Source: Christiangramia fulva
GTDB lineage: Bacteria; Bacteroidota; Bacteroidia; Flavobacteriales; Flavobacteriaceae
Length of the DNA stretch: 64,000 nt
NCBI RefSeq assembly: GCF_003024155.1
Contig: NZ_CP028136.1
Coordinates: 3,844,001 to 3,908,000 of the forward strand
Reading direction: 5' to 3'
A program made the position numbers and the translations under genes. The notes under the pieces are model-generated. The model did no database searches. It was not told the DNA's origin and saw only the letters and a program-made list of their open reading frames with translations. Below, piece by piece: positions 5,276 to 48,518 of the stretch. Position 1 is the stretch's first letter; the number at the start of each line of letters is the position of its first letter.

Positions 5276-7489
5276 TCAGAGGTAAAAATAAAAAGCGGCG
5301 CCTTTTCCCGGTTGACTTTCAGCCCATATATCTCCACCATGTTTTTCGATAATCTTCTTGGCAATGGCTAAACCAATTCCGGTTCCTTTAAAAGGCTTTT
5401 CAGCAAATCTTGTGAATAGTTGAAATATTTCTTCTTTCTTTTCAGGGTCAAAACCTATCCCATTATCTATTACGAAATAAACAGTTTTATCATGAAGGGC
5501 TTTTGATCCGATTTCTATTTTAGGTTTCTCTGCTCTTTCGCTGTATTTCAAAGCATTCATTAGAATATTCGACCAAACCTGCACCAGCATTCTTTTATCC
5601 GCCATCATCTGCGGCATATCTGTCTGGACTATTATTTCTGAATGAGGATAATTAACTTTAAGGTTGAAAGATTTCAAAATATCCTGTAATAATTCATTTA
5701 CAGAAAACTCAGATTTCTTCAATTTCACTGCAGAAACACCTGAAAAGGAAAGAATATCGTCGATAAGCGCATTCATTTCAGCTACTGAATTCAAAATGGT
5801 GCTTATAGCCTGTTGGCCGGGCCCATCTAGTTTATCGTAATAATCTTCTTTTAATATTTGGGCATATCCATCAATTCCGCGCAAAGGAGCTTTTAGATCA
5901 TGGGAAAGTCCGTGACTGAATAACTGCAATTCCTTATGAGCCTTAAAAAGCTGTTCATTGAGGCGTTCGATCTTTTGTTTTTGCTTTTGAAGGATAATAT
6001 TGCTCAGGCTTTCCCTAATAGCCCTGGCCGCGCTTATTTGATAATCCTGCCAGGAATTGGAAATGCCGGTGAGCTGCTGGGTCCATTTTTTAAAAGATTT
6101 CCTGGGAGTGATTCGTTGCTTTTGCTCATCAAAACTGGCTTTTTTATCGGGATTCCCTCCCCAGCTTATATTCTGAACCACCTCAGGCCGAAACCACATA
6201 AGAAAATCATGGTCATTATTTCCCAGTTTTACAGCCAGGATTCCTGAAGCGGTACTGATAAAAGTCTTTGCCGGTTCATAAAATTTGCTCAGATTCCTGG
6301 TGAAGAACAAAGCTTCTTTACTTTTAGATAAAAAATCTGCCGTGAGCTTTTTCACCTGCTTTTTGGTGGGAGTTTTTCCAAGTAATCTTATTTTTCCATT
6401 AAGAATTAAGGCTCCACCGTCACATTCCAGCAAATCGGTAAAAATTGTCTTTTGCTTAAGCAAACCGTTTTTGATCTTGTCTTCATCTTTCATCTGTTCG
6501 ACCAGTTCTGTGCGAACTTTCCCCCATTCATCAAGCTTTTGAATATACCTACGGGTTTCTTTTAGCGATAATTCATTGGAGAAGATCTGCGTTAAAAATT
6601 CACAGGTTTGACGATGATAAAAGCTTATAATTTTTGCGGAATAGTGATGGCATGCCAGCAATCCCCATAGTTTTCCATTGCTGATCAAAGCTGCAGTAAG
6701 CGAGGCTCCCACTTTCATATTCTGAAGATATTCAATATGAATCGGGGAAACTGCTCGTAATTCAGATTTTGAGAGATCGATAGGCTGCAGATTTATTGGC
6801 GATATTTCTGGTTGAATGGGTACCGGACTGCTGTTGACATCAGCTATGATCCTCACGCGATGCTTTAAAAAAAGTTCCCTCGATTGTTTTGGAATATCAC
6901 TGGCGGGATAATGAAGTCCAAGCCAGCTCTCCAGTTCATCCTCTTTTTCTTCAGCTACTACTTCCCCATTCCATTCTTCATCAAATTTATAGATCATCAC
7001 CCTGTCATAACCAAAGATCTTTCTGGTAATAAGGGCCGCCTCATTGCATAGCTCGGCTGGTCCCTGAGCAGCTCCCAATTTTTTAAGAATATGGCTTAAT
7101 TGCCGCTGGTATTCATACGGATCATAACCAGTTTCTTTTAGCTCAAAATCAAGAATAATACTTTCCCCAGAGATATGAGGAATGATCACGAAATTGCGGT
7201 TATTTATACTTATTTCTTTAACTACCTGGCTTTCTTCCTTTTGGCTGGTATTCGCAATTTCCCCGCTTATCACTTCGCCAAGTAAATGCTTTAAATTTTT
7301 ACCGAGCAGTTCTTGATAAGAAATGCCGAAGAAAACTTCGGCATTCTCCCCGATTTGGGTGATGTCAAGATTTCTCTTATCACAAACCACAATAACCCCG
7401 TGAGCCTGTGATTTTCCGATGATGTGAATGGGTTCTTTTTCGCAGTTGCTAATATCTACCTTCTGTGGGTAGTATTCCCTTTGAGACAT
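5276..7489 (-). CDS. Bacteriophytochrome histidine kinase
   Basis: The 737-residue protein has the PAS-GAF-PHY-HisKA-HATPase order of a red/far-red photoreceptor kinase. Cys16 in SNCEKEPIHIIGKSQAHG is where bacteriophytochromes bind biliverdin covalently. The GAF domain carries the phytochrome signature YPASDIPKQSRELF and the LWGLLACHH motif. The dimerization helix contains the phospho-acceptor His in LSHDLKAPLRG (about residue 530). The ATPase domain shows the N box (ILMNALKYS), DNGIGF and GTGIGLAIAKKI. The start ATG directly follows the TAG of the CheB/CheR kinase gene with no intergenic base, and the response regulator and heme oxygenase are downstream. Together they form a self-contained light-sensing unit. 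All key residues are present. Confidence 0.95.
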   Translation of the reverse strand: MSQREYYPQKVDISNCEKEPIHIIGKSQAHGVIVVCDKRNLDITQIGENAEVFFGISYQELLGKNLKHLLGEVISGEIANTSQKEESQVVKEISINNRNFVIIPHISGESIILDFELKETGYDPYEYQRQLSHILKKLGAAQGPAELCNEAALITRKIFGYDRVMIYKFDEEWNGEVVAEEKEDELESWLGLHYPASDIPKQSRELFLKHRVRIIADVNSSPVPIQPEISPINLQPIDLSKSELRAVSPIHIEYLQNMKVGASLTAALISNGKLWGLLACHHYSAKIISFYHRQTCEFLTQIFSNELSLKETRRYIQKLDEWGKVRTELVEQMKDEDKIKNGLLKQKTIFTDLLECDGGALILNGKIRLLGKTPTKKQVKKLTADFLSKSKEALFFTRNLSKFYEPAKTFISTASGILAVKLGNNDHDFLMWFRPEVVQNISWGGNPDKKASFDEQKQRITPRKSFKKWTQQLTGISNSWQDYQISAARAIRESLSNIILQKQKQKIERLNEQLFKAHKELQLFSHGLSHDLKAPLRGIDGYAQILKEDYYDKLDGPGQQAISTILNSVAEMNALIDDILSFSGVSAVKLKKSEFSVNELLQDILKSFNLKVNYPHSEIIVQTDMPQMMADKRMLVQVWSNILMNALKYSERAEKPKIEIGSKALHDKTVYFVIDNGIGFDPEKKEEIFQLFTRFAEKPFKGTGIGLAIAKKIIEKHGGDIWAESQPGKGAAFYFYL

Positions 7490-10400
7490 CTAGCTGGCTT
7501 TTAATTTAAAGTAAAAGGTACTTCCAACTCCAACCTGCGAATCCACCCAAATAGTACCTTCATGTAAAAGCACGATCTTTTCAACGTGCGCCAGCCCCAC
7601 GCCGGTTCCGTCTACGGAGTCATTTCCCGGCACACGATTAAAAATGGTAAATATATTCTTCCTGTCTTCTTCAGAAATTCCCACGCCATTATCCATTATT
7701 GAGAAAACCCAGTAATCTTCTTCCCTGTAAGCGGAGATCCGTATCTCCGGTTTTCGGCCTTTCGGAACATATTTAATAGCGTTGCTGATGAGATTCTGAA
7801 ATAATAACCTCAACTCGATTTCATAACCCTGGATATGAGGCAGGGAACCAGAATGGATTTTTGCCTTCGAATCTTTTATACTCTTGGTGAGATCGTATTT
7901 TACGACTTCTACAACTTCATTCACATCTACCGTGGTTTTTCGCCCGTTTTTCCCAATCCTTGAATGTTCCAGCAGCGCACGAATCTGTGCAGAAAGGCGA
8001 TCTGAAGCATTCTTGATATACTTCACATAATTCTCTCCTTTTTCGTCAAGTTTGTCGGCATACATCTTGCCCAGCACATCGCTTCCAAACTTTATGGTAG
8101 AAAGCGGCTCCTGGAGATCGTGAGAACAAATAGAGACAAATTGTTCAAGATCGCGGTTGGCCCTTTCAAGATCGGCCTTCTGCTCTCTTAATTGTACCTC
8201 AGCCTTTTTAAGTGCAGAAATATCCACACAGGTGTACCTGATAGTGAGAAGGTTTCCTTTTTCATCTTTCTCGGCAGTGGCATTAAGGATCACGGGGAGT
8301 TTCTCCCCGTCTTTCGTGATCATGTCCTGGCTGATGTTGGTCAATTCGCGGGATTCCTTAAAACTTTCCTTTAGTTTATCTGCCGAGGTATGGGAATCTT
8401 TGTCGAAAAGATCAAAAACAGTTTTATTGATAAGCTCTTCTTTGCTTTCATAACCAAGCTTCTCTACCACCTTTTTATTGCATTGTACAATAAGTGAGGT
8501 GCGTGGATCGACGCTAAGGTGCAAAACCGGATCATCTTCATAGAATGATTTAAAGCGTTTTTCACTGGCTTCCAGTTTTTCCCTTGATTTTTGAATGCTT
8601 TCAATATCAATAAAAGAAATTACCACTCCATTTATTTGTTCGTCAGATTCTATATAAGGGGAAATTCTTTGCAGATAATTTTTACCTTCCCGGGAAACGA
8701 TATGTTTTTCCAGTATCTTCCCTGTTTTGAGAACCTTTTTGCAGCGATCAAGAAAACTGCGTTTACGGCTTAAACCAAAACTATTGGTAAAATTATCTAT
8801 AGGCCGTCCCACATCTCCATTTATCAGACTAAAATGTTTTTTAATGGCGGGAGTGAATTTTCTGATTTTAAAACTGCTGTCAAGAAAGATCACGCCAATA
8901 TCTGTACTTTTCAGTAGGTTGTTCATATCGGCGTTCAAAGCAGCGAGATCATCCATTTTCTGAATGTTCTCCGCATTAACGGTATTGATCTCTTCATTTA
9001 CGCTTTGAAGTTCCTCATTAGTACTTTGCAATTCTTCGTTAGATGCCAGTAATTCTTCATTGGCAGCCTGCAGCTCTTCATTACTGGTCTCAACCTCTTC
9101 CAGTGAAGTTTGAAGATCTTCCTTGGTCTTCTTGAGTTCCTCTTCAAGACCGGCGACATATTCTTTGGTCTGCTCTGAAGGGCTGATCTTTGGAACCTCT
9201 TTCATTTGCTCCAGATCCAGCTCTTTTTCAACAAAAGTGATAATATAATTAACCTCGCCATTAAGATTGTGTTCGGTAAAAGGTTTTACAATAATATCAG
9301 CACCAGTGTTTATCCCGTTTTTAGTAACGATCGCATCGCGGTAAATTACTTTATCATTCTGTTTCTTCGCCTGGTTAAAGGTTGTTTGCACTACATATTT
9401 GAGATCAGATTCCAGCATATCTAAAAGGTTAATCGAAAATCCGCTCACGGGAAGGTTGGCGTATTTTCGAAATTCCCCCACTGCATGAAGTATGTTATAA
9501 TTGGAATCTACAAAGACCGATGCCCCTCCAAACTGCTCCAGAAGTGTTTCATGCAGCTGCTGCTGTAACTTCGTTTTTATTGGATTGCTTTTAGCATTGT
9601 TCCTGAAAGATTTTCGATCCCTGCTCATTTTATTCTCTATGAGTTTGGCTCCATTGATCTTTGAAGCCGCTGAAGCTCCAGGGGTAATACCACTATTAAG
9701 TCTTTTACTCGGTACTATATTCCTGTAAATTTTCCAGCGCCGATCTATTTCGGCAAAACTATCACGGTTGCTGTTCACACTTTCACTTGTACCTAAAACC
9801 AGCACACCATCTTTTTTTAAGGCGTAATGCAATACGTTCATCGCCTTTTTCTGAATGCTGTTCTGAAAATAAATCAGCAAATTTCTGCATACTACCATAT
9901 CCATATTGCTAAAAGGCGGATTTTTGATAACGTTATGCTTGGAGAAAATAACCATTCTTCTGATTTTCTCCACGATTTGGTAGCTATGCGATTTACTTAA
10001 AAAGTACTTCAGAAGGAATTCTTTAGAAACATCTGCCACAATACTTTCAGGATATTCACCCTTACTTCCAATATCGAGATGCGGTTTGGAAATATCGGTC
10101 GCGAAGATCTTGATGGTAAGATCTTTCCCTTGCTTTTCCATTTCTTCATAAAGGCTCATGGCAAACGAATAAGCCTCTTCCCCGGTACTACAGCCAACAT
10201 CCCACACTTTTAGGACTTCTCCATCTTCTTTTTCTGAAATAAGTTTAGGAAAGACCTTTTCTCGTAAAACCTTCCACACCTCCTCATCTCGGAAGAATTT
10301 GGTAACTCCAATAAGAAATTCACGATACAGGATCTCAACCTCTTCCTCATTTTTTGTGAGATATTCATAGTAATCGGCGAGGTTTGGGCATTTGCAAATA

Positions 10401-38260: not shown

Positions 38261-40228
38261 TTATTTTTGTTGGAGTTGAACCGGATTATCTAAACGTTCA
38301 TAAGACGAATTATTGCTTTTAAACTCAGGAATTAGATCTTTAAGCTTAGCCACCACTTTATCATTCCTGAATTTATACGCCGAATTAATAATTCGTTCCA
38401 CTTTATTATTAATTAGATCATAATCTCGAACAACATCCTGGCCTATCATAATTTTCTTATGATGTGTAGGCAGGGTTTTACATTCATCATTCAGCAACTC
38501 TTCGTAAAGTTTTTCCCCCGGCCTTAAGCCTGTTATCCGCACTTTGATATTCTTATTTGGTTGGTAGCCTGCAAGTTTGATCATTTTAATGGCCAGATCC
38601 ATTATTTTTACCGGTTCTCCCATATCAAAAACAAAGATCTCACCGCCTTTACCCATAGCACCCGCTTCCAGCACCAGTTGGCAAGCCTCGGGAATGGTCA
38701 TAAAATACCTTATAATATCGGGATGAGTGATGGTGACAGGACCTCCATTCTCTATCTGCTTTTTGAATAAAGGCACGACAGATCCATTTGAGCCTAAAAC
38801 ATTCCCAAAGCGGGTAGTTATAAATTTTGTTGATTTTATTCCATTATTGGTGTTGTGATGATACAGTGATTGCACATACATTTCCGCAGCTCTCTTTGAA
38901 GCTCCCATCACATTGCTGGGATTCACGGCTTTATCGGTCGAAACCATCACAAAATGCCCTACAGAATATTTCACCGCCAAATCGGCAAGATTTTTAGTTC
39001 CATGGATATTCACAAAAATTGCTTCGTGCGGATTACTTTCCATGAGTGGAACGTGCTTATAAGCGGCTGCATGATAAACCACATCAATATTCTGATATTT
39101 GAACATTAGCTCAAGCCTGCGAATATTACTTACATCACACACAATCACTTTAAAATCCTGATCGGGGAACTTTGCCTCCACTTCAAGTTGCAGGTTATGC
39201 AAAGGAGTTTCAGCCTGATCAAGGATTATCAGTCGCTTTGGTTTATATTCGGCTACCTGCCTTACGATCTCACTACCTATAGATCCCGCGGCACCTGTAA
39301 CCAATATTGTTTTCCCGGTAAGCTGAGCGATCTTGTTTTCGGGATCGAGCTTAATGGGCTCCCTCTCCAGGAGATCCTCTATTTCCAGGGTCTTGATTTT
39401 TTGAGCTATAGGCTGATTCTCTTCCCAAGAAGATACCAGCGGGGCATTATACACGGCAATATTATGCTCCAGACATTCATCAACCAGTTTGAATTTTTCT
39501 TCAGATGAAAAAGTATTTTCTGAAAATATAATAGCTTCAGCTCCCAAAGCTTTTACTTCTTTATGGATTTTTCCTTTATGCTGAAGAACAGGCTTATCTA
39601 AAATTCGCAGACTGCGGTGGGAATTCTGGGTTAAAAATCCTTCAATTTTAAAGCGTTTTGGATGTTCAATATCCAGTGCACCCGCAATAGAAATGGCATT
39701 TTCATCAACTCCCAGGATCACCGCGTGGATCAAGGATTCGTTTTTCTGAAAATATTTAAAATATTCATAAACCTGCTTTACTCCTAACCTGAAAAGAAAC
39801 AATAATGAAAATGATATCCAAAGATTTATAAGGAGGCCTCCAATGAGAAATATTTTCTCACCCAGGAAAAACAAGCTTAGGTAATTAATAAAAAGAAGCG
39901 TAAGAAAAGTGCTGAAAGTTGCCAGTAACAACTTGATCGCATCAATATTAGAAGAATATCTTATAATCCCCGCATAAGTTTTAAAAACATAAAAGTAAAA
40001 AAGGTTGGTTCCTACAACTATAGCGGTTTTATCGAAATAGCTGAGGAGGCTATACTGCACCGGTGACAGATCCAACAAAATAAGGATGGTGACCATTACC
40101 GAAACAGTAACCAGTCCTAAATCGATCAAAAGAACAGCCCATCTGGGTAAATACTTGATATTTCTAATATCAAGAGCATTATCGGGGCCAGTAAGAATAT
40201 TTTTTAGGGCCTTATTTAATTTACCCAT
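38261..40228 (-). CDS. Membrane-bound nucleotide-sugar 4,6-dehydratase (PglF/CapD family)
   Basis: The 655-residue protein has four to five membrane helices (about 30-155), a linker domain, and a C-terminal SDR domain from about residue 300. The SDR part has the Rossmann motif VTGAAGSIGSEIVRQV, STDKAVNPSNVMGASKRAAE with Met in the usual Tyr position (a trait of this dehydratase family), and GSNGSVVPLF. Such enzymes form the UDP-4-keto-6-deoxy-HexNAc intermediate. With the neighbouring aminotransferase, acetyltransferase and phosphoglycosyl transferase it makes a set that resembles PglF/E/D/C of bacillosamine synthesis. It ends 12 bases before wza. Confidence 0.92.
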   Translation of the reverse strand: MGKLNKALKNILTGPDNALDIRNIKYLPRWAVLLIDLGLVTVSVMVTILILLDLSPVQYSLLSYFDKTAIVVGTNLFYFYVFKTYAGIIRYSSNIDAIKLLLATFSTFLTLLFINYLSLFFLGEKIFLIGGLLINLWISFSLLFLFRLGVKQVYEYFKYFQKNESLIHAVILGVDENAISIAGALDIEHPKRFKIEGFLTQNSHRSLRILDKPVLQHKGKIHKEVKALGAEAIIFSENTFSSEEKFKLVDECLEHNIAVYNAPLVSSWEENQPIAQKIKTLEIEDLLEREPIKLDPENKIAQLTGKTILVTGAAGSIGSEIVRQVAEYKPKRLIILDQAETPLHNLQLEVEAKFPDQDFKVIVCDVSNIRRLELMFKYQNIDVVYHAAAYKHVPLMESNPHEAIFVNIHGTKNLADLAVKYSVGHFVMVSTDKAVNPSNVMGASKRAAEMYVQSLYHHNTNNGIKSTKFITTRFGNVLGSNGSVVPLFKKQIENGGPVTITHPDIIRYFMTIPEACQLVLEAGAMGKGGEIFVFDMGEPVKIMDLAIKMIKLAGYQPNKNIKVRITGLRPGEKLYEELLNDECKTLPTHHKKIMIGQDVVRDYDLINNKVERIINSAYKFRNDKVVAKLKDLIPEFKSNNSSYERLDNPVQLQQK

Positions 40229-40235
40229 AATAAAT

Positions 40236-41387
40236 TTAATTTTTCAGGCAGCTTAAAATCGCATCCTTAATCCTATCCCGATCTTTAGGAGCGAGATTAG
40301 AACCACTTGGCAAACATAAGCCATTTTTGAACAAATCTTCGGCAACATCCGTACCATAGAACGGGCAATTCATAAAAACTGGTTGCAGATGCATGGGTTT
40401 CCAGAGTGGCCTACACTCAATGTTTTCAGCCTCCAGGTGCTTCCTTAAGGTTTCTCTGTCGATCCCTAATTTTTGCTTATCAATAAAGATAATGCTTAGC
40501 CAATGATTGCTGAAAAATTCCACATCAGGTTCGTCAAATACACTTATGCCGTCAATTCCGCGGAACAAATTTACGTAAAATTGAAACATTTCCCTTCTTT
40601 GCGAAACCCTTTTATCTATTACTTCCATTTGTCCGCGTCCAATTCCTGCAGATATATTACTAAGCCTGTAATTGTATCCAATTTCGCTGTGTTGATAATG
40701 TGGTGCCTCATCCCTGGCCTGTGTCGCTAAAAAAACTGCTTTTTTCTTATCTGAAAGGTTTCGGGTAATCAAAGCGCCCCCACCGGAGGTGGTAATAATC
40801 TTGTTACCGTTAAAAGATAATACCGCAAAGTCTCCAAAGCTGCCACATTTCCTGTTTTTATAGGTACTACCTAAAGCTTCCGCACTGTCTTCAATAACCG
40901 GAATTTCATATTCACTGGCAATTCTATGGATTTCATCTACCTGATAAGGCATCCCGTATAAATGCACCGCAATAATGGCTTTCGGCTTTTTTCCTTTGGC
41001 AATACGATCTTTTATTGCTTTTTCCAGCTGAACAGGGCAAAGATTTAGCGTTTTCTTTTCACTATCTATAAAAACAGGGGTAGCTCCCTGGTATACAATT
41101 GGATTAGCCGAGGCGGCAAAGGTCATGCTCTGACAAATAACCTCATCATCCCTTCTTACCCCGGCTAAAATTAAAGCGAGATGTAGAGCTGCCGTTCCGG
41201 AACTCAATGCTGCTACTTCAATACCCTGATTTTGCTCTCCATCGAGGTACTTTTGAATATCCTTTTCAAACTCATTAACGTTTGGACCTAAAGGCGCGAT
41301 CCAATTTTCTTCAAAAGCCTTATTGATATATTTTAATTCGTTCCCGCCCATATGAGGGGAAGAAAGCCATATTTTATCTTTATTCAT
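40236..41387 (-). CDS. DegT/DnrJ/EryC1-family sugar aminotransferase (PglE-like)
   Basis: The 383-residue PLP enzyme transfers an amino group to a keto-sugar nucleotide. Seen are SSGTAALHLAL near residue 65, the PLP-stacking region IEDSAEALGSTY and the PLP Lys in LSFNGNKIITTSGGG. The substrate is probably the 4-keto product of the adjacent dehydratase, giving a UDP-4-amino-4,6-dideoxy sugar. Its start overlaps the end of the acetyltransferase gene by 8 bases, and 7 bases separate it from the dehydratase gene. Confidence 0.92.
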   Translation of the reverse strand: MNKDKIWLSSPHMGGNELKYINKAFEENWIAPLGPNVNEFEKDIQKYLDGEQNQGIEVAALSSGTAALHLALILAGVRRDDEVICQSMTFAASANPIVYQGATPVFIDSEKKTLNLCPVQLEKAIKDRIAKGKKPKAIIAVHLYGMPYQVDEIHRIASEYEIPVIEDSAEALGSTYKNRKCGSFGDFAVLSFNGNKIITTSGGGALITRNLSDKKKAVFLATQARDEAPHYQHSEIGYNYRLSNISAGIGRGQMEVIDKRVSQRREMFQFYVNLFRGIDGISVFDEPDVEFFSNHWLSIIFIDKQKLGIDRETLRKHLEAENIECRPLWKPMHLQPVFMNCPFYGTDVAEDLFKNGLCLPSGSNLAPKDRDRIKDAILSCLKN

Positions 41388-41994
41388 TTTCGCATTTATT
41401 ATACTTGATGATCCTGCCCGGGTTTCCTACGACCACGGCAAAATCGGGCACATCATCAATTACCACAGCACCGGCTCCCACTGTTGCCCATTTCCCCACG
41501 GTGATCCCGGGAATAATAACAGCTCCGGCTCCAATATGTGCACCTTCACCTACCTTGACATTCCCTGTAAGAACCGTTCCAGGAGAAACATGCACGAAAT
41601 CTTCTAAAACCACCTCATGTTCCACAATCGAGGATGTATTAATTATACAATGTTTTCCTATTACCGCAGCGGGGTTGATCACAGCTCCCGCCATCACCAC
41701 AGAGCCTTCTCCCATTTTTAAATTTTCAGCAACTACGGCATCAGGATGAACAATGGGTTTCGCAAAATTTTCAATAGTTTTCTCCCTCACTATTTTATAG
41801 CGGGTATGATTATTGCCTATTCCGATAACAGCAGTATGCTTTTTCATAGCATCGGAAACTTTATGCAGGACTTCATAGTTTTCAATCTCCATTATATCAG
41901 GGTCTGCATCTACTATGTATTTTATAGATAAGTTCAGTTTGTGAATTATATCGATAATTACCCGGGCATGACCGCTTGCTCCAATTATTAGCAT
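41380..41994 (-). CDS. PglD/NeuD-type left-handed beta-helix acetyltransferase
   Basis: The 204-residue protein has an N-terminal Rossmann-like domain (MLIIGASGHARVIIDII) and a C-terminal left-handed parallel beta-helix of hexapeptide repeats (about 85-200). The catalytic His of PglD corresponds to the one in NTSSIVEHEVVLED. PglD uses acetyl-CoA to acetylate the 4-amino group of the UDP-sugar made by the aminotransferase next to it. Its start codon overlaps the stop of the sugar transferase gene by one base (TAATG), so the genes are translationally coupled. Confidence 0.9.
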   Translation of the reverse strand: MLIIGASGHARVIIDIIHKLNLSIKYIVDADPDIMEIENYEVLHKVSDAMKKHTAVIGIGNNHTRYKIVREKTIENFAKPIVHPDAVVAENLKMGEGSVVMAGAVINPAAVIGKHCIINTSSIVEHEVVLEDFVHVSPGTVLTGNVKVGEGAHIGAGAVIIPGITVGKWATVGAGAVVIDDVPDFAVVVGNPGRIIKYNKCENE

Positions 41995-42599
41995 TAGTTA
42001 TTTCCGTTAAAAGGTTCTGTAGTTGCCATATTCGCCGTATTAATTCCTTCTGAAAGGAAAACTTTTTGAATAGTTCTGAAAAAAATTTTCAAATCCAGTA
42101 AAAAGGATAAATGATCAACATACCACACATCATATTCAAATTTCCTGGTCCAGCTAATGGCATTTCTTCCATTCACTTGCGCCCAGCCTGTAATTCCCGG
42201 TTTTACCTCATGCCTCCTTTTCTGAAAAGGTGAATATATCTCTAAATATTCCGGCAATAAGGGCCGCGGCCCAATTAGGCTCATATCTCCTTTCAGCACA
42301 TTCCACAGCTGAGGGATTTCATCAATGGAAGTTTTCCTTACTATCTTACCGATAAATGTTAAGCGTTCAGCATCAGGCAGAAGTTTTCCCTCCTTATCAG
42401 TTCTGTCATTCATAGTCCTGAACTTCACTATGTTGAAAATCTTTCCATTTTTTCCCGGCCTTTTCTGAAAAAAGAACGGCTTTCCATTATTGACAATAAA
42501 AAGTAAAATGATTACTACCAGTAATAACGGACTTAAAAGCAGCAATCCCACAAAGGCTATTACAAAATCTGATAAAGGTTTCACTACTTTTCTATACAT
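41994..42599 (-). CDS. Monotopic phosphoglycosyl transferase (PglC-like initiating sugar transferase)
   Basis: The 201-residue protein has one N-terminal membrane segment (about 10-35) and the bacterial sugar transferase domain. Diagnostic motifs are KRPGKNGKIFNIVKFRTMND, PQLWNVLKGDMSLIGPRPLL and PGITGWAQVNGRN. The size equals PglC (about 200 residues), the minimal form without extra helices. It would move a sugar-1-phosphate onto undecaprenyl phosphate and start repeat-unit assembly. The adjacent genes suggest UDP-diNAc-bacillosamine or a related sugar as donor. It sits 41 bases after a GT4 gene. Confidence 0.93.
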   Translation of the reverse strand: MYRKVVKPLSDFVIAFVGLLLLSPLLLVVIILLFIVNNGKPFFFQKRPGKNGKIFNIVKFRTMNDRTDKEGKLLPDAERLTFIGKIVRKTSIDEIPQLWNVLKGDMSLIGPRPLLPEYLEIYSPFQKRRHEVKPGITGWAQVNGRNAISWTRKFEYDVWYVDHLSFLLDLKIFFRTIQKVFLSEGINTANMATTEPFNGNN

Positions 42600-44980: not shown

Positions 44981-45724
44981 TTAAGTTTCAGGCTCGATAA
45001 TTTTTTCTAAATAATCGTCCAAGATAATTTTTTTTGAGGGTGAAGTCCTAAGAAAATCTTTAAAAACCTGAAATTCTTTATCGGGTGAATGTAAGCCCTG
45101 CGCAGCGATATGATTTTCGTTATCTCTTTGATCTTCGAGATGATCGCGATAGCCTTTATAATACGCAGTTTTAAAAAAACTAAAGCCGGCGATAAAGACC
45201 TGTTCGGTTTGAGGAATAAGGGAAGAAGCAAGCGCATAAAAACCGATAGTTGGTAAATGAGAACCAAATCTCGAAGAGATATTTTCAGAAATTTCTTTAT
45301 TTAACAAATAGGTGGGAATTCTTTGTTTTTTCCTTTTATAAAAATTCAATTGGGCTTTTCTTCCTAATGAATTATTATTAGGATTGATAATTTTTTGAAT
45401 TCCAAATTTGGTATAAAGGTCCAAATCTATTTCCCCGCCTCCACTCTGCTCATTTTCAAAAAAACTATGGTATAAAATGTCGATCCGCTTCCCCATATAT
45501 TTATCCAGGGAAGGCTCCCACGCATGCGGAGCTTTATTTACGCGAATAACAATATCAGAAGCTTCAATTATTTCCCTGTTTGATTTAATAAGGGCTGTGT
45601 CTGCCGCTCCTATGACCGCAATTTTCTTTTGACTGAATTCGGCTACGGGATCAAATTCGGCTACAGAAATATGGAAAAGGTATTTCCCGTACAGGTGTCG
45701 TATAACTTTATTCAAAGGATTCAA
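44981..45724 (-). CDS. GT29-like (sialyltransferase-family) glycosyltransferase
   Basis: The 247-residue protein shows the pattern of GT29 sialyltransferase motifs: motif L at 36-63 (AVIGAADTALI to DIVIRVNKAP), motif S at 157-184 (LPTIGFYALAS to VFIAGFSFF) and a VS-like His-x4-Glu at 212-217 (GLHSPDKEF). GT29 enzymes use CMP-activated sialic acids or related ulosonic acids. The CMP-sugar synthetase gene two positions upstream supports a CMP donor. The length is close to bacterial GT29-like proteins. No ATG is available: the TTG at 45724 is the first start after an in-frame stop, and it overlaps the HAD gene by 17 bases. The family call comes from motif pattern, not a search. Confidence 0.72.
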   Translation of the reverse strand: MNPLNKVIRHLYGKYLFHISVAEFDPVAEFSQKKIAVIGAADTALIKSNREIIEASDIVIRVNKAPHAWEPSLDKYMGKRIDILYHSFFENEQSGGGEIDLDLYTKFGIQKIINPNNNSLGRKAQLNFYKRKKQRIPTYLLNKEISENISSRFGSHLPTIGFYALASSLIPQTEQVFIAGFSFFKTAYYKGYRDHLEDQRDNENHIAAQGLHSPDKEFQVFKDFLRTSPSKKIILDDYLEKIIEPET

Positions 45725-46331
45725 TATAGTTAAGGTCTTTTTCTTTTAAGGCCGGGTTATTGAAGCCAAAAAACTGAACATTATTTTTTTCAGCTGCCTC
45801 ATAGTCGTTTACCGAATCTCCAATGAGAACACTTTCAGAAGGCTCAATTTTCTTTTTTTCAAGTAGCTGCTTTACAAGTTGTGGCTTCGGCGTTGGGGAA
45901 CCTTCTATTTCTTCAAAAAGATGGGCGATTTCCAGTTCTTTACATAAAAACCTCAGTTCTTCTCCATCGGAACCGGAAACAATCAGCATTCGATAATTAT
46001 CTTTATTTTTTTGAATAAATTGAAGCGTTTCCGGTATCAGCACTTTTTTATCGACCAGTTTTTTTACCATGATATCTGAAAAACGTGAAGCCAGCTCCTC
46101 TACTCTCTCATCACTGACCTCTTCGTGACGGATCTCTTCAAAGAAATAACGAAATTTTACATACCGCGAGATCCCGCCGTTTTGATGATGGTATTTAACC
46201 AATTGTTGTACCTGGTCTTTTGGATAATCTTCCAGTACTTTTTCGAATCCATAGGTCCGCACCTTTTCCGAATCGATAATCACACCGTCAAAATCCCAGA
46301 ATATTACATTTTTATCGATAAAATTTTTCAT
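45708..46331 (-). CDS. HAD-family phosphatase
   Basis: The 207-residue protein has all four HAD motifs: FWDFDGVIID with nucleophile Asp13 and Asp15, the Ser of MLIVSGSDGEE, the Lys of PTPKPQLVKQLL, and VLIGDSVNDYEAA. A helical cap at about 20-90 places it among the phosphoglycolate-phosphatase/beta-phosphoglucomutase type. In this cassette the likely job is removing phosphate from a sugar-acid phosphate before CMP activation, the role KdsC or the Kdn-9-P and Neu5Ac-9-P phosphatases play elsewhere. It overlaps the CMP-sugar synthetase gene by 20 bases. Confidence 0.85.
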   Translation of the reverse strand: MKNFIDKNVIFWDFDGVIIDSEKVRTYGFEKVLEDYPKDQVQQLVKYHHQNGGISRYVKFRYFFEEIRHEEVSDERVEELASRFSDIMVKKLVDKKVLIPETLQFIQKNKDNYRMLIVSGSDGEELRFLCKELEIAHLFEEIEGSPTPKPQLVKQLLEKKKIEPSESVLIGDSVNDYEAAEKNNVQFFGFNNPALKEKDLNYIESFE

Positions 46332-46992
46332 AAATCGCTTCGGCTAATTTAAAATCAAGATCGGTATCAATATCCCAGGAGTCCAATTTATTCATTTCAT
46401 ATAAAAAAGGATCTTTACCAATTCTGTTTCCATTTTCGTAAAACTTCCTACTGGCCAGGAAAATGGCACTATTCACCTGATAAATTTCTTCCAGATCCTG
46501 TGAACGCGGCCATACCTGATTTCCCTTGGCGTTGGCCAATCTTTTCTTCTTTCGGTCCCAAAAAAATTCTTTTTTACATTCTACCGACATCAATGAATCA
46601 TGATTTTCAAGATTCCTGAATTTCTCAATGGCATCCCGATAATTTTCTGCCTGGCAGAATGGCGAGGTCACATGGCTCCATAAAATATGTTCGCATTGGG
46701 TAATTTGAGGAATATATTTAATAAGGTCGGTAAGCTTTGTTTCTGAAGAAGAAAGTTCTTCAGGACGTTGGACTATCTTTAAGGAACTTAACTTCTCCTT
46801 AAAACCTTCAGCAATCTCGATACATTGGGGATCATTGGTTGAAATTATTATCTCGGTAAAAGAAGTAATTTTAAGTAACTGGTTAAGTTTCAACTCAAGT
46901 AATCCGCCGGGGATATCAGAGAATTTTCTCGTGTTCTTTTCTTTTACACGTTCACTCCCTTTTCTTACAGGTATGAATAATGCGAGGCTCAC
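46312..46992 (-). CDS. CMP-sugar synthetase (acylneuraminate cytidylyltransferase family)
   Basis: The 226-residue protein starts with the nucleotide-binding signature FIPVRKGSERVKEKNTRKF of the NeuA/KdsB superfamily, closest in form to NeuA. It goes on with IIISTNDPQCIEIA and HVTSPFCQAENYRDAIEKF. It would form a CMP-ulosonic acid (CMP-NeuAc, CMP-Kdn, CMP-Kdo or a new relative) from CTP. The start is GTG, sharing a base with the aldolase stop (TAGTG). Neighbouring aldolase, HAD and GT29-like genes form a full make-activate-transfer series. The substrate is unknown because no NeuB-type synthase is visible. Confidence 0.86.
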   Translation of the reverse strand: MSLALFIPVRKGSERVKEKNTRKFSDIPGGLLELKLNQLLKITSFTEIIISTNDPQCIEIAEGFKEKLSSLKIVQRPEELSSSETKLTDLIKYIPQITQCEHILWSHVTSPFCQAENYRDAIEKFRNLENHDSLMSVECKKEFFWDRKKKRLANAKGNQVWPRSQDLEEIYQVNSAIFLASRKFYENGNRIGKDPFLYEMNKLDSWDIDTDLDFKLAEAIYEKFYR

Positions 46993-48518
46993 TAAATTAA
47001 GGTATAAATTGATCTGGAATCTAATGAATATTCGGTTGGGGTTAAACTCCAGATTTTAAGTTCATCTTTAAAATCTTCAAAAATCCTTGAGTTTTCCTCG
47101 AAAAGTTCAAGTTCTTCCTTGGTCATAGTTCCTCCATAACCATCATAACCGGTAACAAAAAGCTCTTTTATAGAATGTTTCAGACAAAACTGTAATATCA
47201 AGGCAGTCATGGAGCGCTGGTACTTCTGGTCAAAATCTTTGCTTTTCAGTTTTATTGACTGCTTTTCAAGATTTTCCGGGATATATGTCAAAGTTGAAAA
47301 GAAATCGGGTGCTAAAATGGCAATTCTATTTGAAAAATCTTTGATTTCTTTTTGAGATTGCAAGCGTTTTCCTTCGTTTCCGGCTAAAAAGTGAAGTTGA
47401 AAATTAGAACTCTCTGAAAAGCAGGTAACATTTTTAGAACTGGCAAAAATGATAAGAATATTTTTCTCATTTTCGGCAAATTCGTTTATGGCTTCACAAT
47501 GGGATTTCACTGAATCCCCACCACCTATTAGAATGGCTTTTTCAAATTTGGGAAATTTATAATTTTCTGAAACGGGCTCTTTTTTCGTCGAGATATCTTT
47601 TTTAAAGGAATTCAACGAAAAAAATCGCTTTTTCACTTGTGACATAACGGCATCTTGTGGAAGGGATCTGATACCCGAAACCATATAAGGCAAATTAGTG
47701 CCCCAGTGATATTTCCCCCGAAATTCTTCAAAAATATCGCTGATCGAATTCAGCACATCCAGATCCAGCTCGATAATCTGCTCTTTAAAAAGGACACTCA
47801 GTAAAAGTTCCGTTCTTAAATTCCCGGCACCTCTACCCATTCCTAGAACAGTGGAATCAATAATTCCTGCACCGGAATTGCGCGCAGCTAAAGAATTCGC
47901 CAGAGCAAGTTCCAGATTATTATGGCCATGAAATCCAATTAGGATAGTTAATTCAGATTTCAAATAGGCAAGACATTTTTGTACAGAATCGGGAAACATT
48001 CCTCCATAAGAATCCACCAGATAAAAGAAATCAAAACCTTCATTTATCTGCTGCAAAATTTCTTTTCCCGGATAATTATCCTGCCATTCACTTGCGTACA
48101 TAAGATTTAGAGCCACCTCAAAACCTTCTTCCTTTATTCTTTTGCCAAGTTTTAAAGATCGTTCAAGATTTTCCGGTTTTACTGCGAGCCGAACCAAATC
48201 GATATAACCTTTTGCATTTTCCAGTAAGGAAGAACAATCATTTTCACTAACTTCCTTTTCATTGATCATTACCGCCAGTTTATGAATGGAGCGGTCGCAG
48301 CACTTTTCGAGCACTTTTTGCGGCAGGTAGTAAAAAGCTCCGTGGTAATCTTCTTTTTGAATTGAAAAATAACCTATTTCAATATAATCCAAAGGCAGTT
48401 GATTGGTCAATTCGAAATATGAAATTAGAAGATCCTCAGGAAAATCCCAGTTTGTATAGTATCCGCCATCCCGCAGCGTACAATCCAGAAGTAAAAGCCT
48501 GTCTTCTTTGAAATTCAT
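46992..48518 (-). CDS. DRE-TIM aldolase-like protein with extra C-terminal domain
   Basis: The 508-residue protein has an HMG-CoA-lyase/4-hydroxy-2-oxovalerate-aldolase-type barrel at about 7-290. The DRE-TIM signature is LDCTLRDGG (Asp12, Arg16, Asp17), the metal ligands are His197 and His199 in GFHGHNN, and GMGRGAGN lies at 226-233. Known members form or cleave C-C bonds between pyruvate (or acetyl-CoA) and an aldehyde or keto acid, using a divalent metal. The C-terminal 190 residues are separate and have a Rossmann-like KAILIGGGDS (327-336) and LFVTGYDGYGG (453-463); I do not recognise this domain with certainty. It leads a cassette with CMP-sugar synthetase, HAD phosphatase and GT29-like genes. 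It may make a 2-keto-3-deoxy sugar acid in place of NeuB. Confidence 0.8.
   Translation of the reverse strand: MNFKEDRLLLLDCTLRDGGYYTNWDFPEDLLISYFELTNQLPLDYIEIGYFSIQKEDYHGAFYYLPQKVLEKCCDRSIHKLAVMINEKEVSENDCSSLLENAKGYIDLVRLAVKPENLERSLKLGKRIKEEGFEVALNLMYASEWQDNYPGKEILQQINEGFDFFYLVDSYGGMFPDSVQKCLAYLKSELTILIGFHGHNNLELALANSLAARNSGAGIIDSTVLGMGRGAGNLRTELLLSVLFKEQIIELDLDVLNSISDIFEEFRGKYHWGTNLPYMVSGIRSLPQDAVMSQVKKRFFSLNSFKKDISTKKEPVSENYKFPKFEKAILIGGGDSVKSHCEAINEFAENEKNILIIFASSKNVTCFSESSNFQLHFLAGNEGKRLQSQKEIKDFSNRIAILAPDFFSTLTYIPENLEKQSIKLKSKDFDQKYQRSMTALILQFCLKHSIKELFVTGYDGYGGTMTKEELELFEENSRIFEDFKDELKIWSLTPTEYSLDSRSIYTLI

Follow-up and report, generated by a model that had tools for sequence, protein, structure and literature searches.

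A cassette of four overlapping open reading frames (ORFs) on the minus strand of the Christiangramia fulva chromosome probably encodes both the synthesis and the activation of a 3-deoxy-2-ulosonic acid by a route independent of phosphoenolpyruvate (PEP), and would thus constitute a cytidine monophosphate (CMP)-ulosonate pathway whose reactions, step order and aldose substrate we infer from the genes present. The cassette lies in the 64,000-nucleotide stretch analyzed here (the window), positions 3844001-3908000 of a single contig (C1) of 4.38 Mb. ORF coordinates and a Pfam scan gave, in the order of transcription, an aldolase, a CMP-sugar synthetase, a haloacid dehalogenase (HAD)-type phosphatase and a GT29-like transferase, overlapping by 1, 20 and 17 bases, and the 4 Pfam matches (HMGL-like, CTP_transf_3, HAD_2, and Glyco_transf_29) all exceed their gathering scores. 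This confirmed the gene families, order and overlaps proposed in an initial annotation made from the DNA letters. Gene content, order, conservation and linkage are directly established, and the folds are predicted. The features of the cassette are as follows:

46992..48518, minus strand: aldolase, 508 amino acids (aa), 2 domains, a DRE-TIM (HMGL-like) barrel and a predicted C-terminal MptE/Maf-like domain (PF00682, 2.2e-21)
47592..48497, minus strand: N-terminal barrel of the aldolase, residues 8-309 (homologue alignment and pairwise alignment to 4lrs)
46995..47567, minus strand: C-terminal domain of the aldolase, residues 318-508, predicted Maf/MptE/CstII-like fold
46312..46992, minus strand: CMP-sugar synthetase, 226 aa, NeuA/PseF-like, not KdsB-like, GTG start (PF02348, 1.2e-14)
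45708..46331, minus strand: HAD phosphatase, 207 aa (PF13419, 7.9e-21)
44981..45724, minus strand: GT29-like transferase (sialyltransferase family), 247 aa, TTG start (PF00777, 1.1e-7; 32.0 bits versus a gathering score of 23)

In the proposed pathway, the DRE-TIM barrel would bind a divalent metal and pyruvate and form an enolate. Addition of this enolate to an aldose, probably in phosphorylated form, would give a 4-hydroxy-2-oxo (3-deoxy-2-ulosonic) acid phosphate, from which the HAD enzyme would remove the phosphate. The synthetase would convert the dephosphorylated acid to its CMP derivative, and the GT29-like enzyme of the window would transfer the activated acid into the polysaccharide specified by the surrounding genes. 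In the aldolase, the C-terminal domain may bind the CMP-sugar, serving in product sensing, in hand-over, or in transfer at loci that have no GT29-like gene. The logic is that of the known CMP-ulosonate pathways, and the enzyme that forms the carbon bond differs: the routes to CMP-activated acid sugars known to us all use PEP-dependent synthases. As the initial annotation had stated, no such synthase (NeuB or KdsA) is visible at the cassette, and a Pfam scan of 20 window proteins detected none. Such a cassette was not described in the titles and abstract openings listed by the literature searches, which left out most subscription papers.

The evidence that carries this proposal is the linkage between aldolase and synthetase. 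GTDB species genomes were scanned with the aldolase peptides alone and the best 80 of 150 relatives were kept, giving 81 loci with the window; HAD-free loci and loci with an HpcH/HpaI gene are included in all 81-locus counts. The 80 relatives are mostly Bacteroidota, with some Balneolota and one Akkermansiaceae. In 81/81 loci, a CMP-family synthetase gene lies no more than 3 genes from the aldolase. It occupies +1 to +3 in 79 loci and -1 in 2, and in 66 loci it stands at +1 on the same strand. A HAD gene is located at +1 to +5 in 66/81 loci, and in 76 loci no more than 30 bases separate the aldolase from the gene that follows. Among 647 background genes located more than 5 positions from the aldolase, 9 are CMP-family and none encodes this HAD, which rules out a chance or operon-only neighbourhood. 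The CMP-family label includes weak members (the second such gene in L011, L022, L024, L029, and L055 scores 67-101 bits).

In an even sample of the phylum (395 genomes), full-length aldolases were found at 9 loci, spread over 8 genomes and not counting the window; synthetase and HAD genes occur within 4 genes of the aldolase in all 9, 3 of which (L115, L116, and L119) repeat L057, L053, and L014. In the 3 phylum searches, scoring was restricted in each genome to the top 3 or 7 candidates of a first look, so that some loci may have been missed. No full-length aldolase homologue examined, in the 81 loci or in these 9, was without a neighbouring CMP-sugar gene. The constant company of both a synthetase and a GT29-like gene, which the initial annotation had suggested as a check, held for the former and not for the latter: the GT29-like gene is optional, being present in 18/81 loci, with a further, divergent copy in L064, a count that draws in part on an iterated search that can drift and is a lead only. 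Four more distant aldolase matches of the phylum sample (110-143 bits; L122-L125) are of other kinds; L123 lies on a 3.5-kb contig, and L125 has a KdsB-like gene beside the match. In L125, the frame at 5504-7549 encodes a 681-aa protein with an N-terminal part that resembles 4-hydroxy-2-oxovalerate (HOA) aldolase and an unassigned C-terminal part, and it adjoins the KdsB-like gene.

The cassette trio is also found in Verrucomicrobiota (L063). In a plasmid search, 52 of 72,556 records matched, none over 80% of the query. By annotation, a Leisingera plasmid (Alphaproteobacteria) carries in a row an aldolase, a 3-deoxy-manno-octulosonate cytidylyltransferase and a HAD hydrolase. The plasmid neighbourhoods of Mesorhizobium and Priestia have no annotated polysaccharide genes, that of Desulfobaculum has some, and that of Streptomyces is unannotated. 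On the Desulfobaculum plasmid, an N-domain-only aldolase homologue (L095, 7962-8975) lies beside 2 transketolase-annotated genes and rfbH. Phage records gave no match at E ≤ 1e-5.

The synthetases linked to the aldolase in the 81 loci belong to 3 lineages: NeuA/PseF-like (46), KdsB-like (30), and another NeuA-like type (5). On the aldolase tree, the synthetase type changes 15 times, compared with a mean of 29.0 after shuffling, and well-supported branches, in a bootstrap that had not settled, force at least 6 changes (NeuA/PseF-like) or at least 7 (KdsB type). The partner lineage has thus been exchanged repeatedly while the link was kept, which argues for a working link.

To compare the KdsB-type copies with the enzyme acting on 3-deoxy-D-manno-octulosonic acid (Kdo), we used a set of 15 housekeeping KdsB proteins, 14 from the 17 KdsB-type genomes plus that of the window genome; the other 3 genomes have the cassette copy alone at E ≤ 1e-30. 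L146, the KdsB-like gene at +7 of L039, was left out of both the housekeeping and the cassette sets; in this aldolase-cassette locus, an HpcH/HpaI gene at +6 adjoins that second KdsB-like gene. A quick FastTree tree with midpoint root placed the 15 housekeeping proteins in one clade with none of the 31 cassette copies inside it, a tree from which the clade status of the cassette copies themselves does not follow. Position 181 (window-genome KdsB numbering), at which we assume that the His of KdsB contacts Kdo, is His in 15/15 housekeeping proteins and Gln (27) or Ala (4) in 31/31 cassette copies. The KdsB-type copies of cassettes with an HpcH/HpaI gene have Gln there in 5/5, and D103, D238, and other invariant residues are unchanged in the KdsB-type cassette copies. 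Because this change falls in the C-terminal domain of KdsB, which binds Kdo (PMC3149649), the sequences suggest that the product of the KdsB-type relatives would be an acid like Kdo, not Kdo itself. The window synthetase is of another lineage, and this result therefore says nothing direct about the window product.

The closest solved structure to the aldolase is BVU_2661 of Bacteroides vulgatus (PDB 3dxi), which was deposited as a putative aldolase and, unlike the cassette protein, consists of the N-terminal domain only. After 3dxi, the best matches of the barrel among solved structures are pyruvate aldolases. HOA aldolases have Asp, His and His as metal ligands, a catalytic Arg, and a catalytic His after the RDG motif. 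Alignment to 4lrs showed that the metal ligands (D17, H197, and H199) and the catalytic Arg (R16) are kept, and these residues and S170 are invariant in 34/34 homologues; the VDS and GFHGHNN motifs of the barrel also resemble HOA aldolase. The protein nonetheless differs from characterised members such as DmpG, BphI and HsaF in its extra C-terminal domain and in scoring 80.1 bits with the HOA aldolase model TIGR03217, below the equivalog cut-off of 286. No partner gene for an acylating aldehyde dehydrogenase was seen in the scan of 20 window proteins, to which the search for one was confined. The barrel also matches other DRE-TIM enzymes (isopropylmalate synthases, homocitrate synthases, and pyruvate carboxylase). 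The description of this protein as a DRE-TIM metallo-aldolase thus agrees with the barrel family and the metal residues, and had overlooked the second domain.

This C-terminal domain is predicted to have the fold common to the Maf flagellin transferase, CstII (GT42), and MptE, to which its identity is 9-16%. By sequence, its matches to solved structures are at chance level (best E 0.1), and its alignment contains no invariant His like the sialyltransferase base. The MptE-like model PF01973 (gathering score 34.6) does not match the window copy and scores 25.1 bits in L014. With hhalign, the GT29 match was weak (41.5%), and the MptE-like neighbours did better over a short stretch (96.1%, 27 columns).

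The other 3 proteins retain the residues of their families. The window synthetase scored 77.3 bits with the PseF model (cut-off 205.7) and 16.6 bits with the KdsB model (cut-off 193), is matched by the CMP-N-acetylneuraminic acid (Neu5Ac) synthetase 1qwj (9.2e-11), and has P8, R10, G12, S13, R15, K19, Q165, D207, and D209 invariant in 47 sequences. The HAD protein is closest to β-phosphoglucomutase and phosphoglycolate-phosphatase types and is not of KdsC type (27.4 bits with the KdsC model, cut-off 106.95). Its D13, D15, S119, K149, D172, and D176 are each kept in ≥95% of the 66 sequences aligned, so that the 4 motifs that define HAD phosphatases are present. In the GT29-like protein, H212 and E217, the H-x4-E of sialylmotif VS of GT29, are invariant in 17 sequences. 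A search of the 395 phylum genomes found a GT29-like gene in 2 of them, the second (G530) in a NeuB locus; there (L194, 8245-9063) the gene shares its locus with a 597-aa frame containing NeuB and with separate NeuA-type genes.

The genomic context points to the chemistry of 2-keto-3-deoxy acids, through HpcH/HpaI aldolases and 2-keto-3-deoxygluconate (KDG) kinase homologues as well as the KdsB-type synthetases. A gene of HpcH/HpaI type is located at +1 of the aldolase in 11/81 loci; the 2 of these that were Pfam-scanned both match PF03328, and one HpcH/HpaI protein is closest to the 2-keto-3-deoxy sugar aldolase YfaU (1.5e-34). In the HAD-free loci L084 and L088, a KDG kinase homologue follows the synthetase at +2 (L084 versus 2afb, 5.9e-94):

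L084, 12229-13266: KDG kinase homologue, at the usual place of the HAD gene
L088, 12240-13268: KDG kinase homologue, at the usual place of the HAD gene

A HAD profile gave 11 strong matches in the 395 phylum genomes, counting the window; 9 of these accompany the aldolase and 2 (L180 and L181) lie away from it. It also gave one shortened match beside the aldolase and 10 weaker matches. Seven of the weaker matches (L182, L183, L186, L187, L189, L190, and L191) are accompanied by an HpcH/HpaI aldolase and a CMP synthetase, without a DRE-TIM gene; the remaining 3 have a NeuA-type gene and no HpcH/HpaI. Some of these distant-HAD loci add a member of the 6-phosphogluconolactonase/glucosamine isomerase family, a SIS protein, a transaldolase or a 2-hydroxyacid dehydrogenase. 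The 7 HpcH/HpaI cassettes make the combination of pyruvate aldolase, HAD and CMP synthetase a wider theme in which 2 aldolase families occupy one place, and they are possibly a second new ulosonate pathway.

We also analyzed whether a PEP synthase elsewhere could feed the cassette. The source genome contains a single NeuB (C1:57525), outside the window, in a separate nonulosonate locus (L002, C1:45000-64000) that also encodes a NeuA of its own (C1:50546) and a NeuC-like protein:

L002 12286-13299, minus strand: NeuB
L002 7849-9012, minus strand: NeuC-like (named by eye)
L002 5421-6104, minus strand: NeuA
L002 6101-6997, minus strand: formyltransferase-like (named by eye)

PF00793 matches 2 frames of this genome (273 and 366 aa), named here from their sizes as a putative KdsA and a putative 3-deoxy-D-arabino-heptulosonate 7-phosphate (DAHP) synthase, and PF02348 matches 3 synthetases, that of the NeuB locus, a KdsB-type one at 2974023, and that of the window. 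Since the NeuB locus has its own synthetase and another is of KdsB type, the window synthetase is the one left without a PEP synthase partner; judged by position, the genome holds no neuB dedicated to it. NeuB was also sought in 50 genomes of the 80 loci (L011-L060), all of unreported completeness and some of them metagenome-assembled genomes: 14/50 gave no match, among them the Pedobacter genome of L052, whose chromosome is recorded as complete, and 3 more gave weak matches only (E 2.9e-8, 2.1e-6, and 7.5e-4). NeuB is present in the fetched flank of 20/81 loci, 17 of which have a second CMP-family gene, weakly matched in 5. The distant NeuB is weakened as the feeder of the cassette synthetase by these results, and the window genome does hold one.

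Several observations weigh against the proposed pathway. The catalytic His of HOA aldolase, which acts as the general base in DmpG and BphI, corresponds in the 4lrs alignment to Tyr20 of the window aldolase, and this Tyr is invariant in the homologue alignment; the idea that the enzyme makes an ulosonic acid from pyruvate is supported in part, by the HpcH/HpaI, KDG kinase and KdsB-type context, and not by this position. No HAD gene lies within 5 genes of the aldolase in 15/81 loci, and the kinase in place of HAD in 2 loci fits poorly with a simple dephosphorylation. If HpcH/HpaI is the aldolase in the 11 loci that have it, the DRE-TIM protein acts otherwise there, or both act. Homologues of the N-domain occur without CMP genes (L122 and L124 and, by annotation, Mesorhizobium L091 and Priestia L094). 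The window genome itself holds a NeuB, and in a sample of 120 genomes of the family (L126 and L127 repeat L023 and L029), in which NeuB is present in 75, all 4 genomes with the aldolase have NeuB, so that this sample does not show independence from NeuB. Because of that NeuB, and because the other GT29-like gene in the 395 genomes lies in a NeuB locus, the window GT29 could use a CMP-nonulosonic acid.

The alternative that survives best, although we consider it unlikely, is that the synthetase activates an acid from the housekeeping KdsA or the distant NeuB, which the DRE-TIM enzyme would remodel by retro-aldol cleavage and re-addition (C4 epimerisation or chain change). The NeuB gene and KdsA-sized gene of the source genome, the KdsB-type synthetases in 30/81 loci, and the NeuB of all 4 aldolase genomes in the family sample are in keeping with it; it is opposed by the 14/50 aldolase genomes without a NeuB match, by the residue changed in all KdsB-type cassette copies, and by the synthetase that the source-genome NeuB already has. 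Marginally less probable is a non-aldolase barrel that would act on another 2-oxo acid, by condensation or decarboxylation of Claisen or transcarboxylase type, to make an acyl decoration, the CMP linkage reflecting shared use in polysaccharide loci. The missing His and the matches to isopropylmalate synthases, homocitrate synthases and pyruvate carboxylase would agree with such a function, but the synthetase is immediately next on the same strand in 66/81 loci against 9/647 CMP-family genes beyond 5 positions, the VDS and GFHGHNN motifs are like those of HOA aldolase, and no CoA-related gene was recognised among 44 recurrent neighbour families read by eye. Least probable is that HpcH/HpaI makes the acid where present, with the DRE-TIM protein acting at a later step or as a regulator, its barrel otherwise specialised and its Maf-like domain handling the CMP-sugar. 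The HpcH/HpaI cassettes without a DRE-TIM gene and the Maf/CstII-like fold might indicate this; against it, the residues for metal and pyruvate do not vary in 34/34 homologues, and HpcH/HpaI is absent from +1 in 70/81 loci, the window among them.

We retain the PEP-independent pathway and propose, tentatively, a more specific form of it: the fused pyruvate aldolase and sialyltransferase-fold domain might build a 3-deoxy-ulosonic acid that is new, distinct from Kdo and from the known nonulosonic acids, and might also handle its CMP form, within a class of PEP-independent CMP-ulosonate pathways in which HpcH/HpaI aldolases hold the same place in sister cassettes.

With the NeuB-HAD-NeuA pathways (sialic acid, KDN, legionaminic and pseudaminic acids) the cassette shares the 2-keto-3-deoxy acid logic, a phosphatase, a NeuA/PseF-like synthetase and an enzyme of a sialyltransferase family, and it differs in having a DRE-TIM enzyme instead of NeuB and a HAD that is not of KdsC type. 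The likeness to the KdsA-KdsC-KdsB pathway of Kdo is confined to the KdsB-type synthetases of the sister loci, which fall outside the housekeeping clade with His181 changed; the cassette has no KdsA, and the window synthetase is not KdsB-like. The HpcH/HpaI aldolases (YfaU) are likewise pyruvate aldolases standing beside a CMP synthetase and HAD in sister cassettes, but they belong to another Pfam family and are absent from the window cassette. An aldolase feeding a synthetase is also the principle of a laboratory one-pot preparation of CMP-sialates, in which sialic acid aldolase acts with pyruvate and CMP-sialate synthetase follows (PMC7729866); there the pair works in vitro, whereas here it is a genomic cassette.

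The cassette is surrounded by a Wza/Wzc/CpsB-type polysaccharide locus, as judged by Pfam matches of the window proteins, with genes for CpsB/CapC, Wzc-like and Wza-like proteins, a Polysacc_synt_2 dehydratase, a DegT aminotransferase, a PglD-like acetyltransferase, a bacterial sugar transferase, several glycosyltransferases and an ABC transporter. The dehydratase, aminotransferase, acetyltransferase and sugar transferase are consecutive (window 38261-42599), a row that we take to resemble a set for UDP-diNAc-bacillosamine plus the initiating transferase.

If the proposed pathway is correct, CMP-activated acid sugars would gain a further biosynthetic class, a recurrent route that starts with a pyruvate aldolase. 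This route would also give a function to the structural-genomics protein 3dxi and provide enzymes for preparing rare ulosonic acids, and it would predict unreported acid sugars on the surfaces of Bacteroidota.

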